DNA of 64,000 nt from Tyzzerella sp. (lineage in GTDB: Bacteria; Bacillota; Clostridia; Lachnospirales; Lachnospiraceae), in the NCBI GenBank assembly GCA_017416155.1, contig JAFQDE010000015.1, forward strand, positions 62,001-126,000, read 5' to 3'. Below, in pieces: positions 4,774 through 64,000 of the stretch (the first letter of the stretch is position 1; every line of letters starts with the position of its first letter). The position numbers and the translations under genes are program-made. The notes under the pieces were generated by a model. The model saw nothing but the letters and a program-made list of their open reading frames with translations, searched no databases and was not told where the DNA came from.

Positions 4774-5670
4774 ATGAAGAGAATTTCTTTGAACAATCGA
4801 ATATGGGTCATTCCGATGGCGTGTTTATTCCTGTTCATAGGAATCGGTTTTAGTATTCGTGATACATATTCACGTTATCTCAATGAAATATATAGCGTGA
4901 CAACGTATAAAGCAGACGCATATTACCAATGGAAACTTTCTGGTGGTGATATTGTTGGAGCGGAGAAGTCAAGGCGTGAGATTCCAACTGCACCTGCGAC
5001 TGGTAAAACGGGAGTAAAGTTACTTCAACACCCTTCTCCTAATTCACCATTGATTGTTCAGCTTACTTATCCGGAAGGATATAACGAGGTTGCCATTTCA
5101 TTCAATGGCAGTACATTTCCATCGGGAACCAGTTATTCATTTGATGGAGTAGAGCAGTATCAACTGCAGGAGACAGGTTATATTAGTTTGACGGGAGAGA
5201 CCGTGTTTGCGATGGGATTTCCTGATGAATTGTTACAAGTCGGACAGAGTGCAACACTGGGCTTCTATTTCTTCGGAGAGGGTAAAGAGACCACTCTTGT
5301 AGACTTACAGATTAAAAAGGTGGCAAACGAAGCAAGTGGTGTTAGCTTACAGGGAACCTCTAAGCCTATTTTGGGAAAAGAGGGAACTCTAAACTGGAAC
5401 ATCATGAAAACGTTTGCTGATATGGAATATACGGTGCGTCTGGAATATCTATCTGCGGATGGATATGTACAGATACCGGTCGCTGATTCACTGAAAAGCA
5501 ACATTGTTTCCAATAATGATGGAAGTGTTACGGTTACACTTTCGAATACAAAAGCGAATCAGGCATTAGCAGGAACTTATCGAATGGTTGTGGCGCAAAC
5601 GGGCAAGCTGAATGGTCAGACATATCAGTTGCAGTCGATTTGCATTCCATTCTTTGTTTATTACAGATAG
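4774..5670 (+). CDS. Exported protein with TasA-like anchor
   Basis: 298 residues. The basic start (MKRISLNNR) precedes a hydrophobic segment at about 11-30 and the junction RDTYSRYLNEIYSVTTYKAD, similar in pattern to the preceding protein (ARYQQSVTKD). The mature part is beta-rich, with no recognised fold and no cell-wall sorting signal. GAAGGGAC precedes the ATG at 4774. The gene sits 18 bases after its neighbour and 16 bases before the giant gene, consistent with one transcript. It is likely another SipW substrate and structural component. I cannot assign a named family beyond the signal-peptide resemblance. Confidence 0.68.
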   Translation: MKRISLNNRIWVIPMACLFLFIGIGFSIRDTYSRYLNEIYSVTTYKADAYYQWKLSGGDIVGAEKSRREIPTAPATGKTGVKLLQHPSPNSPLIVQLTYPEGYNEVAISFNGSTFPSGTSYSFDGVEQYQLQETGYISLTGETVFAMGFPDELLQVGQSATLGFYFFGEGKETTLVDLQIKKVANEASGVSLQGTSKPILGKEGTLNWNIMKTFADMEYTVRLEYLSADGYVQIPVADSLKSNIVSNNDGSVTVTLSNTKANQALAGTYRMVVAQTGKLNGQTYQLQSICIPFFVYYR

Positions 5671-60203: not shown

Positions 60204-61115
60204 ATGTTAGATGTTTGTTTACTTGGTTGTGGCGGAATGATGCCGCTACCATATCGCTGGCTGACGGCCCTTATGACACGATTTAACGGCAGCAGTTTGC
60301 TCATTGACTGCGGCGAGGGGACTCAGGTGGCAATAAAAGAAAAAGGATGGAGTTTCAAACCAATCGATGTGATATGTTTCACACATTATCACGGAGATCA
60401 CATCAGCGGACTTCCGGGACTTTTGCTCACCATGGGAAATGCAGACCGTACGGACCCGTTGACGTTGATTGGACCAAAAGGATTGGAGCGTGTGGTGAAT
60501 GCACTTCGCGTCATTGCGCCGGAGCTTCCGTTTGAAATTAAGTTCATAGAGATTACACAGCCGGAAGAAACTTTTGAAATGAACGGATATCGCTTGAAAG
60601 CGTTTCGTGTGAATCACAATGTAGTTTGCTATGGTTATACTCTTGAGATAGACAGGGCAGGCAAGTTTGATTTGGAGAGAGCGATGGAGCAGGAGATTCC
60701 AAAGCAGTACTGGAAACACCTCCAAAAGGGTGAAACCATCGAGGATAACGGCAAAGTTTATACGCCGGATATGGTGCTCGGACCGACGCGCAAAGGAATC
60801 AAGTTGACATACACTACAGATACTAGACCGACAAACTCTATTCGTGAGAATGCGAAGGGTTCAGACCTTTTCGTTTGTGAAGGAATGTACGGGGAAGAAG
60901 AGAAGGATGCAAAAGCAGCGGAGTATAAACACATGACCATGTATGAGGCGGCTGAATTGGCAAAAGCTGCTGAAGTAGAAGAAATGTGGCTGACGCATTA
61001 TAGTCCGTCGCTGAACAGACCGGAGGAATATATGGACAAAGTTCGCGAAATCTTCCCGAATGCGAAGGCAGGGAAGGATGCTATGACAGTGGAACTTGTG
61101 TTTCCTGAAGAGTAG
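60204..61115 (+). CDS. rnz: Ribonuclease Z
   Basis: 303 residues. The metallo-beta-lactamase motif HYHGDHISGLPG (about 63-74) binds the two Zn ions. LLIDCGEGTQ, YTTDTRP, the EKDAKAAEYKHMTMYEAAELAK helix with its His, and LTHYSP supply further ligands. It matures the 3' ends of tRNA precursors, needed here because the tRNA genes in this window do not encode CCA. GGCAGGGG precedes the ATG. tsaD follows 30 bases on. Confidence 0.96.
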   Translation: MLDVCLLGCGGMMPLPYRWLTALMTRFNGSSLLIDCGEGTQVAIKEKGWSFKPIDVICFTHYHGDHISGLPGLLLTMGNADRTDPLTLIGPKGLERVVNALRVIAPELPFEIKFIEITQPEETFEMNGYRLKAFRVNHNVVCYGYTLEIDRAGKFDLERAMEQEIPKQYWKHLQKGETIEDNGKVYTPDMVLGPTRKGIKLTYTTDTRPTNSIRENAKGSDLFVCEGMYGEEEKDAKAAEYKHMTMYEAAELAKAAEVEEMWLTHYSPSLNRPEEYMDKVREIFPNAKAGKDAMTVELVFPEE

Positions 61116-61145
61116 GGACACGTATTTAGATAAGAGGAAGAGCAA

Positions 61146-62174
61146 ATGACAGAGCAGAAAGACATATTGATATTGGCAATCGAGAGTTCCTGTGATGAGA
61201 CAGCGGCATCGGTTGTGAAGAATGGACGCGAGGTGTTATCGAATGTCATCTCGTCTCAGATTGAGCTCCACAAATTATATGGTGGGGTGGTGCCTGAGAT
61301 TGCGTCTCGCAAACATATTGAGAAAATCAATCAAGTAATCGAAGAGGCATTGGAAGTAGCAGGTGTGACTTTAGATGATCTTGATGCAATTGGGGTGACT
61401 TATGGACCGGGATTGGTTGGAGCACTCCTTGTTGGCGTCGCTGAGGCGAAGGCAATTGCTTATGCTAAGAACCTTCCGCTTGTAGGTGTACATCACATTG
61501 AAGGACACATTTCTGCAAACTATATAGAGAACTTAGAACTGGAACCGCCGTTTATCTGTCTGGTGGTTTCCGGCGGACATACCCATCTCGTATGCGTGAA
61601 GGATTATGGACAATATGAGATTATCGGAAGAACCAGAGACGATGCGGCAGGTGAAGCATTTGACAAGGTTGCGCGTGCAATTGGACTCGGATATCCGGGT
61701 GGCCCAAAGATTGACAAGTTATCCAAAGAAGGAAATGCGGATGCGATTGTATTTCCAAAGGCACATATTACAGATTCTCCGTATGACTTCAGCTTCAGTG
61801 GTGTAAAGTCGGCAGTGCTCAACTACATCAATGGTTGCAAGATGAAAGGCGAAGAGTACAACAATGCGGATATTGCGGCATCCTTTCAAAAAGCAGTTAC
61901 AGATGTACTTGTTGAAAATGCCATGCGTGCGGTGAAGGAGTATGGACTTAACAAGTTTGCAATCGCAGGCGGTGTTGCGTCTAACGGCACACTGCGTGTT
62001 GCCATGCAGGAAGCATGCGAGGGAAACGGCGTGGAATTCTATCATCCATCACCGATTTACTGTACAGACAATGCAGCTATGATTGGCGTGGCTGCCTACT
62101 ATGAATATATCAATGGAACAAGACATGGATGGGACCTCAATGCGGTTCCGAATCTCAAGTTGGGAGAGCGTTAG
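61146..62174 (+). CDS. tsaD: tRNA N6-threonylcarbamoyladenosine transferase TsaD
   Basis: 342 residues. The opening [15 protein letters not shown] is invariant in Tsa[10 protein letters not shown] (about 116-124) binds the metal, and [35 protein letters not shown] and [10 protein letters not shown] follow. It transfers the threonylcarbamoyl group to A37 of tRNA together with TsaB and TsaE, whose genes lie upstream. AGAGGAAG precedes the ATG. ispD starts just after its stop. Confidence 0.98.
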
Positions 62175-62175
62175 G

Positions 62176-62880
62176 ATGCAAAAGAAGAAATGTACAGCGA
62201 TTGTTCTTGCAGCAGGACAGGGCAGGCGCATGGGTACAAAGGTTCAAAAGCAATATTTGGAAATTGATGGCAAGCCGGTTTTATATTACTCGCTTCATAC
62301 ATTTGAACAGTCGGAAATCATCGATGAGATTATCTTGGTAGTCGGTGACAATCAGGCAGAGTATTGTCAGAATGAGATTGTTTCCAAGTACGGATTTTCT
62401 AAAGTCCGAAGGATTGTGCAGGGTGGTGCAGAGCGATACATTTCTGTATGGAATGGATTGCAGGAAGTGGATGATGGCGGCTATGTTTTTATTCATGACG
62501 GGGCAAGACCATTTATCAATGAAGAAATTTTAAATCGTGCGTATAATGATGTGCAATTATGTAAATCCTGTGTGGTAGGGATGCCGGTAAAGGATACCAT
62601 TAAACTGGCTGACAGCGAAGGATTTGTAAATGAGACGCCAGACAGAAGTCTGGTGTGGATGATTCAGACACCACAAGTATTTGAAAGCAGTCTTGTGAAG
62701 CAAGCATATGCGCTACTTATGGAGCAGGAACATATACAAGTGACAGATGATGCAATGGTGGTAGAGCAGATGTTGGGACATAAAGTGAAGCTAACCATGG
62801 GCTCTTATGAGAATATCAAAATTACAACCCCAGAGGATTTGGAAATCGCAGAAATCTTCGTGAAAAATCTTGAAAAATAA
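62176..62880 (+). CDS. ispD: 2-C-methyl-D-erythritol 4-phosphate cytidylyltransferase
   Basis: 234 residues from the ATG at 62176, two bases after the tsaD stop; GGGAGAG upstream lies within tsaD. The CTP-binding motif VLAAGQGRRMGTKVQKQYLEI is near the N-terminus. FIHDGARPFI, DTIKLAD and TPQVFESSLVKQAY match IspD. It is the third step of the non-mevalonate isoprenoid pathway (CDP-methylerythritol formation). The next pathway gene, ispF, is not adjacent. Confidence 0.96.
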   Translation: MQKKKCTAIVLAAGQGRRMGTKVQKQYLEIDGKPVLYYSLHTFEQSEIIDEIILVVGDNQAEYCQNEIVSKYGFSKVRRIVQGGAERYISVWNGLQEVDDGGYVFIHDGARPFINEEILNRAYNDVQLCKSCVVGMPVKDTIKLADSEGFVNETPDRSLVWMIQTPQVFESSLVKQAYALLMEQEHIQVTDDAMVVEQMLGHKVKLTMGSYENIKITTPEDLEIAEIFVKNLEK

Positions 62881-62892
62881 TTTGAAAAAGTG

Positions 62893-62921
62893 TTGACAGT
62901 GTCCGCCTGGCATGGTATTAT
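62893..62921 (+). promoter_or_regulatory. Promoter of tRNA-Ser
   Basis: TTGACA (62893-62898), a 17-base spacer and TATTAT (62916-62921), 41 bases before the tRNA. Confidence 0.85.
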
Positions 62922-62962
62922 TAGATTCGTCGCTGAGCGGATGCGACAACAATAGAATATAT

Positions 62963-63048
62963 GCAGAGGTATCGAAGTGGTCATAACGAGGCGGTCTTGA
63001 AAACCGTTTGTCCGAGAGGGCGCGTGGGTTCGAATCCCACCCTCTGCG
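62963..63048 (+). tRNA. tRNA-Ser (anticodon TGA)
   Basis: 86 nt, class II. The acceptor GCAGAGG pairs with CCTCTGC, discriminator G. The anticodon stem-loop GCGGT-CTTGAAA-ACCGT carries anticodon TGA (UCA codons). There is a long variable arm, and GGTTCGAATCC forms the T-arm. CCA is not encoded. Confidence 0.97.
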
Positions 63049-63053
63049 TTAGA

Positions 63054-63097
63054 AAGCCTGTAATTCCAAATGGAATTGCAGGCTTTTGATTTTTTGA
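63054..63097 (+). terminator. Terminator after tRNA-Ser
   Basis: AAGCCTGTAATTCC (63054-63067) pairs with GGAATTGCAGGCTT (63072-63085), one G-T pair, followed by T-rich sequence. Confidence 0.92.
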
Positions 63098-63135
63098 TAG
63101 AGATTAGGGTGCTGCGCCTCTTGGTATAGATATTT

Positions 63136-63381
63136 TACGGTGCATAGTGGGATTTGGCGATTTTGCACCGTAGAGGATTTTAGTGTGTTTATGAATTTAC
63201 GGCGCATTTTAAAGAAATCAAATTTCACACCGTGAATTTCAGGTAAAAATCACATATTTTCGAATAGAAATGATTAGGTTTACGGTGAACATTGAGACTT
63301 TTGTATAAGGCACCGTAATCCCAAATATTTTTGTCTAATATATACGGTGTATATATTTAAAATGAGCATTTAAACCGTAAA
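63136..63381. repeat. Phased array of four ACGGTG-N23-CACCGT inverted pairs
   Basis: This gene-free interval holds eight copies of ACGGTG in alternating orientation. Forward copies start at 63137, 63199 (ACGGCG), 63282 and 63344; reverse copies (CACCGT) start at 63166, 63228, 63311 and 63373 (AACCGT). Every pair is offset by exactly 29 bases, giving 23 between hexamers. Gaps between pairs are 27, 48 and 27, so the layout is symmetrical. Flanks extend to TTTACGGTGCA, but the 23-base centres share no sequence. The rest of 63098-63430 is AT-rich. Confidence 0.85.
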
Positions 63382-63429
63382 CATGCAAAAAGACTCTCGA
63401 TCATTGACTATAGCCTTATACGTAATTCG

Positions 63430-63458
63430 TTGAAAGATAATGAGTTTTATAGTACAAT
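63430..63458 (+). promoter_or_regulatory. Predicted promoter of the terminal membrane-protein gene
   Basis: TTGAAA (63430-63435), a 17-base spacer and TACAAT (63453-63458), starting 49 bases after the last repeat hexamer. Confidence 0.65.
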
Positions 63459-63491
63459 GATGAAAAGAAAATAGTTAGAGGTGAAAAGAAT

Positions 63492-64000
63492 ATGTTTGAT
63501 TGGAAAAACAAAAAATCAAGATTTCACTTTTGGGGAATGGTAATCAGTTTGGCTATATTGTTAATCGTATTCTATGCTACAGATGGATGGACTGGAGATA
63601 AAGAATTTTCGGAATATACTCGCTATGATTGGTCGATTGCCATATTACCGCTGTCAATTATGGCTGTTTCAGGTATTTCTACTTTGGTTTTTTCTTTAAT
63701 TATAATAATTCCAATAATAAGAATATATCCAGCGTTAATGAATTATGTAATAAACAAGAAATTTTCTGATATAGATCCGGGAACAGAATTTTTTGTTTTT
63801 GACCATAATGAATTAAAACGTGCTTGTTGTCGCACAGAAAAGCAAAACGGGATCTGGATTTCCATCAAAGAATATAGTTTAAAGACAAAAAGTTGGACAA
63901 TTATTGAAGAAGGTCGCCATATTGAAAAAAAGGATGACTTGATTTGTACATTACAAGAAGAATATAAGTATGATAAGGTGAAGTTTTACAGTAGGAAAAA
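63492..64000 (+). CDS. Partial membrane protein gene (runs off the window)
   Basis: 169 complete codons with no stop before the end. The ATG at 63492 has AGAGGTG ten bases upstream. Two hydrophobic segments (about 15-30 and 51-78) are followed by a polar cytoplasmic part with a Cys pair (RACCRTEKQ). The composition is AT-rich, unlike the tsa-isp genes before it, and the gene lies after a tRNA and the repeat array, a typical place for acquired DNA. No family is recognised. Confidence 0.7.
   Translation, partial: MFDWKNKKSRFHFWGMVISLAILLIVFYATDGWTGDKEFSEYTRYDWSIAILPLSIMAVSGISTLVFSLIIIIPIIRIYPALMNYVINKKFSDIDPGTEFFVFDHNELKRACCRTEKQNGIWISIKEYSLKTKSWTIIEEGRHIEKKDDLICTLQEEYKYDKVKFYSRK

Follow-up and report, generated by a model that had tools for sequence, protein, structure and literature searches.

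Plasmid centromere arrays such as sopC, and parS sites, are tandem protein-binding units made of inverted half-sites at a whole-turn pitch; centromeres occupy a single locus, consist of conserved repeats, lie beside par genes, and, where of the ParB type, are bound by ParB. CRISPR arrays are built of identical direct repeats of ~23-47 bp with unique spacers. Among dispersed repeats, the BIMEs of enterobacteria are described as intergenic units with regular spacing, alternating orientation, and variable copy number, which are bound by DNA gyrase and IHF (PMC2817692), and their units, the REPs, as imperfect palindromes of 20-40 bp (PMC3733652). The REPINs of Pseudomonas are inverted REP doublets with conserved ends and a less conserved middle whose length matters; they are scattered between genes, their middles fold with compensatory changes, and their ordered clusters are nearly identical copies (PMC3116915). 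Both BIMEs and REPINs consist of REPs and are linked to RAYT transposases (PMC2817692, PMC3116915). Finally, the stoperators of mycobacteriophages are asymmetric sites for one protein, many of them scattered over a phage genome (PMC9283540). In searches of the open-licence literature, we found no description of the arrays that are the subject of this report.

The array that raised the question lies in a stretch of 64,000 nucleotides (the window) from a Tyzzerella sp. draft genome, here G000 (2.07 Mb, 84% complete). Its parts and flanks are as follows.

62962..63049, + strand: tRNA-Ser (tga), the upstream flank, thought to be outside the array
63053..63086, + strand: hairpin with 16-nt arms, directly 3' of the tRNA, read as an ordinary terminator
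63136..63172, no strand: pair 1, TACGGTG-N23-CACCGTA, half-sites at 63136 and 63166, both exact (positions 5137 and 5167 of locus L047)
63198..63234, no strand: pair 2, TACGGCG-N23-CACCGTG, half-sites at 63198 and 63228, 1 mismatch in each
63281..63317, no strand: pair 3, TACGGTG-N23-CACCGTA, half-sites at 63281 and 63311, both exact
63343..63379, no strand: pair 4, TACGGTG-N23-AACCGTA, half-sites at 63343 and 63373, the second with 1 mismatch
63492..63998, + strand: ORF for a putative membrane protein, a downstream neighbour only, which extends beyond the window end (174 aa in L047, 5493-6017)

The original prediction described eight ACGGTG hexamers, of which six are exact, the third reading ACGGCG and the eighth ACGGTT; the extended half-site TACGGTG fits the window sites better than the hexamer does. 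The arrays of G000 are degraded, as the mismatches in pairs 2 and 4 attest. The reported 29-base offset (N23) is true of all four pairs, and the gaps of 27, 48, and 27 bases, with pair starts 62, 83, and 62 apart, are correct. The mirror symmetry drawn from these numbers is incidental; other arrays mix distances of ~62, 73, 83, and 94. Rfam models run against window positions 61000-64000 gave four matches, the tRNA alone above its gathering score; the three sub-gathering matches extend no further than 63117, short of the array, and no Rfam match falls inside it. Pairs of the form ACGGTG-N8..38-CACCGT are commoner in the window than in shuffled sequence, as had been expected (2 versus a mean of 0.05 over 100 shuffles, one of which reached 2). 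Over the whole of G000, the same pattern occurs at 11 places versus 3 for its control, with exactly N23 at 8 of the 11, and exact ACGGTG-N23-CACCGT occurs at 8 places versus 0 for the reversed control. Chance was rejected on that last count, on the shuffles, and on the phase of the spacings described next.

How constrained is the geometry? In a set of 87 pairs with at most 1 mismatch, from 25 loci, the gap is N23 in 74, N24 in 11, and N22 in 2. This preference is not forced by the search, because a pattern permitting total gaps of 18-26 gave only 22-24 among the 53 matches listed. Distances between successive pairs, measured centre to centre where below 140 bp and with 2-mismatch pairs kept if near a better one, cluster at 61-63.5, 71-74, 82-84, 94, 114, and 125 bp. 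Among periods from 5 to 20 bp, 10.50 bp fits best (R 0.927, n=66 distances), and the largest R among 2000 uniform nulls, scanned from 9.5 to 11.5 bp, is 0.36. Over 34 arrays or single pairs (106 pairs), 71 of 72 distances lie at most 1.5 bp from n x 10.5 - 0.8, where 20.6 would be expected. Arrays inside one genome may share history, and some equal spacings, above all in genome G062 (below), are tandem duplications and non-independent; when each of 25 arrays contributes a single distance, R is 0.92 (Rayleigh ~6e-10), and a bootstrap over arrays gives a period of 10.46 bp (10.38-10.60). All six distances from two arrays added later fit the phase, a small subset with just two multi-pair arrays. 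The helical repeat of B-DNA is ~10.5 bp. Thus, spacings read from 25 arrays by sequence alone return the helical repeat, which we regard as unusually direct evidence of selection for assembly on one face of the DNA. The near-whole-turn spacing noted in the window is therefore a property of many arrays, and the quantised distances strongly support the suggestion that conserved geometry without conserved filler points to protein binding on DNA.

Across 61 genomes, TACGGTG-N23-CACCGTA occurs 7 times in G000, 35 times in G008 (same genus, from goat colon), 3 times in G009, once in G031, and in none of the other 57; the single pair in G031 is taken as chance, its control also being 1. The N23 offset, then, does recur in relatives, the 35 strict pairs of G008 being the clearest case. 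Over ten same-genus genomes, ACGGTG-N22..24-CACCGT gave 43 matches in G008, 9 in G000, 4 in G009, 1 in G004, and none in six, and its reversed control gave 0 in G000, G008, and G007, 1 in six others, and 3 in G002. A pattern of three half-sites run over one genome per species (~85,000 species, a scan that may omit the window's own genome) returned 17 stretches in three MAGs only: Tyzzerella sp. RGIG2081 (goat colon), Tyzzerella sp. RGIG4687 (roe deer), and Lachnospiraceae RGIG7268 (water buffalo). A similar pattern over 397 genomes of the family was positive in two, G000 and G395, the G395 match being identical to that of RGIG7268. The half-site TTACGGTGYR exceeds its control in G008 (71 versus 27) and G000 (34 versus 22) and shows no clear excess in G009 (15 versus 12) or G395 (14 versus 16), each of which has one array by the patterns used; among seven other genomes, it is above control in G001 (20 versus 15) and below it in six. 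These presence calls rest on exact or near-exact half-sites, which decayed arrays would escape, and on array-bearing genomes that are incomplete drafts (65-93%), three of them titled MAG, the exception being G062 (100% complete). In viral contigs, the array patterns built on TACGGTG and on TACGGTTC both gave 0 matches, and carriage by phages or viruses was rejected on that ground; a looser core pattern found 40 viral stretches with scattered gaps, about the chance number by estimate alone.

This layout departs from three of the systems introduced above. Compared by sequence layout alone, the arrays resemble sopC and parS in their tandem units of inverted half-sites at whole-turn pitch and differ in occupying tens of chromosomal loci with unrelated filler. 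Judged on the repeats alone, they are unlike CRISPR arrays: the unit is 7 bp and alternates in orientation. Stoperators share the proposed scheme of one protein with many sites scattered over a genome and differ in that the sites here are paired, phased, and chromosomal.

Comparison of junctions between relatives indicates that pairs have been gained. Between gltX and uvrD, 7 of 10 genomes (G001, G003, G004, G005, G006, G007, and G009) have a short gap free of pairs, G000 has one pair, G008 has five, and G002 has a different upstream gene and no pair. Between potD and rluD, no pair is present in G003, G005, or G006, against one in G000 and six in G008, two of these six with 2 mismatches; G001, G002, G007, and G395 have a different upstream gene there, and G004 and G009 offer weak paralogs only. 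Because relatives are empty at these two junctions, the pairs there are additions and not old intergenic sequence. The region upstream of dgt holds four pairs in G000 and three in G008; the seven other close-match genomes have none in the 500 bp preceding the gene (423 bp in G004), and the dgt query in G009 gave a weak match only. Of the genomes read, only the window's own shows its array: 8 of 10 others have tRNA-Ser(tga), and in none of the 8 does a pair follow within the 354-700 bp inspected. The sequence 3' of this tRNA differs in the relatives inspected, which have other DNA there than the window's 174-aa ORF. Empty, one-pair, and five-pair states of a single junction, gltX-uvrD, make the birth and growth of the system testable.

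A five-protein tree groups G000 and G008 with G007 at 78%. Another tree gives 100% for that grouping, with a gltX set included that may mix genes, and a TsaD tree places G000 with G002 and G009 (83/83). The array sites common to G000 and G008 may reflect common origin or independent gain, since both would fit the 78% grouping.

Where do the arrays sit? The position between a tRNA terminator and a gene, correctly described for the window, is one instance of a general intergenic placement. By a census on uncurated ORFs of at least 90 aa, with RNA genes left out, 19 of 34 arrays or single pairs lie between tandem ORFs, 8 between convergent and 5 between divergent ones, and 2 overlap a predicted ORF, one of these overlaps (L068) arising from an early start codon chosen by the script. 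The flanking genes belong to the ordinary core set and share neither a theme nor a target function; by our own reading of the sequences, we take them to be serA, rluD, dgt-dnaG, gltX-uvrD, luxS, prfA, ispF, the atp operon, and others. In several cases a tRNA gene (Ser, Cys, Leu, Thr) stands next to the array or a short way before it, at 62962-63379 in the window, L042:2211-2705, L038:3870-4307, and L250:1628-2046. No dedicated candidate for a binder gene stood out in the array neighbourhoods examined. Regulators that we take to be of MocR type (L042) and TrpR/YerC-like (L035) occur beside arrays once each, and a presumed XRE-type regulator (L037) stands one gene further from its array.

Within the pairs, symmetrised composition (74 pairs) is nearly invariant over TACGGTG, followed by Y and R and by A-rich positions -9 to -7. 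The pair centre is AT-rich (AAAWTTT), with 6% GC at the middle base versus 28% in the filler, a composition that suggests a half-site flanking an AT-rich, bendable middle. The filler is otherwise unconserved: between arrays, its 19 inner bases agree at a mean of 7.45 versus 7.47 (sd 0.03) for a column-shuffled null, and the best cross-array pair agrees at 15/19 where the mean best of 100 nulls is 14.2. Whole-array copying between loci was rejected on this ground, different arrays' fillers being on average no closer than column-shuffled ones. Within arrays, agreement is higher (mean 7.87), with clear tandem duplication remnants such as L033 4182/4255 (16/19). The original prediction had set selection against recent duplication, and this was partly right: the window's intervening bases are unrelated, but some related arrays keep 62/73-bp tandem duplication remnants. 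In L033:4182-4362 (G008:C14), three adjacent pairs at 72-73-bp pitch have the common filler GCGAAAAAAGAAAAT...AGTCTG-like, which is a tandem duplication remnant; weaker traces occur at L031 4084/4157 and L035 3940/4002.

Could the pairs be mobile DNA of REPIN or MITE kind, that is, small inverted repeats that fold as single-stranded DNA or RNA and are moved by a transposase? Their intergenic dispersal, the filled and empty sites among relatives, the unequal copy number between relatives, and a minority of near-palindromic pairs would all be expected of such elements, and, as in BIMEs, the arrays are intergenic, alternate in orientation, and are regularly spaced. Like REPINs, they also have two inverted ends round a less conserved middle. 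We nonetheless consider this explanation unlikely. The halves of the filler are no more complementary than permuted halves (74 N23 pairs; Watson-Crick p 0.33, with G-U p 0.43), and no difference in RNA folding energy separates 87 pairs from chimeras (p 0.37), so that an RNA or cruciform hairpin was rejected as a general explanation. Where REPIN middles fold and clusters are copies, fillers here pair no better than null on average, and different arrays are not copies. There is a small tail of 4 pairs in 87 with at least 8 of 11 complementary positions (expected 0.98, P 0.0125), namely L067:4002, L039:3808, L029:3694, and L046:3930, near-palindromic through the filler; these may have arisen recently or serve a second purpose, and a hairpin role is possible for a minority of pairs. 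In place of a REP, the unit is a non-palindromic half-site of 7-10 bp (TACGGTG plus weak flanks) with fixed pair spacing and a quantised pitch, and mobility would not predict spacings quantised at 10.5 bp. Nor does the Y1 transposase domain PF01797 follow the arrays, and it was rejected as the mover: G000 has one match (a 153-aa frame), G008 one that is interrupted by a stop, and G009 and G395 none, both being array-bearing genomes among those 65-93% complete, which makes absence uncertain; longer forms occur in array-free G002, G003, and G005. Open frames of 256-268 aa with the Y1 domain lie in G002:C57, G003:C22, and G005:C7, and none so long was found in G000, G008, G009, or G395. The surroundings of the Y1 gene in G000 (L175) hold no half-site nearby. 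On the tests of hairpin, unit, and RAYT, the arrays are neither BIMEs nor REPINs. Less probable still is a role as transcription terminators or RNA stem-loops at gene ends, stem-loops of constrained size having been the original prediction's alternative to protein binding; several arrays do begin at most 15 bases from an ORF end, and each exact pair could form a stem of 6-7 bp, but the loops would be 22-24 nt, generally without extended pairing, up to six copies stand in a row with spacing quantised at the DNA helical repeat, and the window's array, as noted, drew no Rfam match. The stem-loop alternative is thus unsupported as a general rule.

The reading that we prefer is that each array is a row of phased sites for one putative sequence-specific DNA-binding protein, and we consider this likely. 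We posit that a symmetrical dimer would grip two half-sites in inverted orientation, each a TTACGGTGYR core with an A-rich inner edge, at a distance of 30 bp, that the AT-rich centre between them could bend toward the dimer, and that neighbouring dimers, whole turns apart, would stand on the same DNA face and be able to touch. Binding would presumably be cooperative and the sites kept by selection. Such arrays may serve to anchor or insulate stretches of the chromosome and not to control particular genes. Would an ordinary regulon do as well, in which a transcription factor has several operator sites at each promoter? Cooperative regulators typically use inverted half-sites in helical phase, and some arrays are upstream of genes. 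Set against this, the neighbours appear, by our own reading, to be unrelated housekeeping genes, 8 of the 34 arrays lie between convergent ORFs, and at three junctions the other relatives that could be read lack the array, so a regulon seems improbable to us. Given the unrelated neighbours and the lack of any required orientation, we favour an architectural or insulating role over a regulon, though only tentatively; it is the weakest step of the proposal, and the single arrays in G009 and G395 fit a chromosome-wide role poorly. The overall interpretation in the original prediction is partly supported. The proposal predicts a sequence-specific, probably architectural protein in gut Lachnospiraceae, for which the array supplies an exact bait.

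To generalize the question further, does the layout exist with other half-sites? We used a motif-free detector that reports any 6-mer with an inverted copy at one spacing at least 3 times within 400 bp; it was positive at 7 of 7 control loci (L033 at another spacing) and also recovered the window array. In a sample of 80 loci (1.25 Mb; 40 family genomes with one stretch of at most 20 kb each, plus same-genus and G395 samples), the sole new array came from G062, which belongs to a different Lachnospiraceae genus. It has six units, TACGG(T/C)T-N23-(A/G)ACCGTA, 52-53 bp apart, the sixth with one extra change, and its fillers are similar in five of the six. Among fourteen further stretches of the same contig, the core pattern caught a second array, L250, which the motif-free detector did not: its five units stand 52-53 bp apart, carry 0 to 2 mismatches, and vary more in filler, and it lies ~100 bp behind a tRNA-Thr. 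In 300 kb of G062, the core TACGGT-N25-ACCGTA occurs exactly 5 times versus 0 for the control (18 versus 10 with up to 2 mismatches), and among 45 further sampled loci (0.71 Mb) there is one exact core, with 0 for the control. A pooled scan for other motifs with the same layout found nothing at a four-copy threshold in samples of 18-107 kb from nine genomes (seven array-free same-genus genomes plus G009 and G395), a scan insensitive to a single array, as the sampled known array of G009 also fell below that threshold.

The G062 units have the same 37-bp frame as the TACGGTG arrays, with T in place of G after TACGGT (half-site TACGGTT). Somewhat more tentatively than the architectural role, we speculate that both belong to a previously undescribed class of chromosomal element, in which dispersed, helix-phased arrays of paired half-sites would seed empty intergenic gaps, grow by whole-turn tandem duplication, and be read by a dedicated, lineage-variable chromosome-organising protein, Lachnospiraceae genera varying the half-site (TACGGTGY, TACGGTTC) on the common frame. 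The 53-bp pitch in G062 corresponds to 5.05 turns, and its regularity is owed in part to tandem duplication. One pair stands outside the array class: L006:1501-1523 (G000:C35:11018), ACGGTG-N11-CACCGT, resembles an ordinary terminator hairpin. The centre of the G062 units is again AT-rich, with an AAAA core and A at positions 17-18 in 11 of 11 units and at 16 and 19 in 10 of 11.
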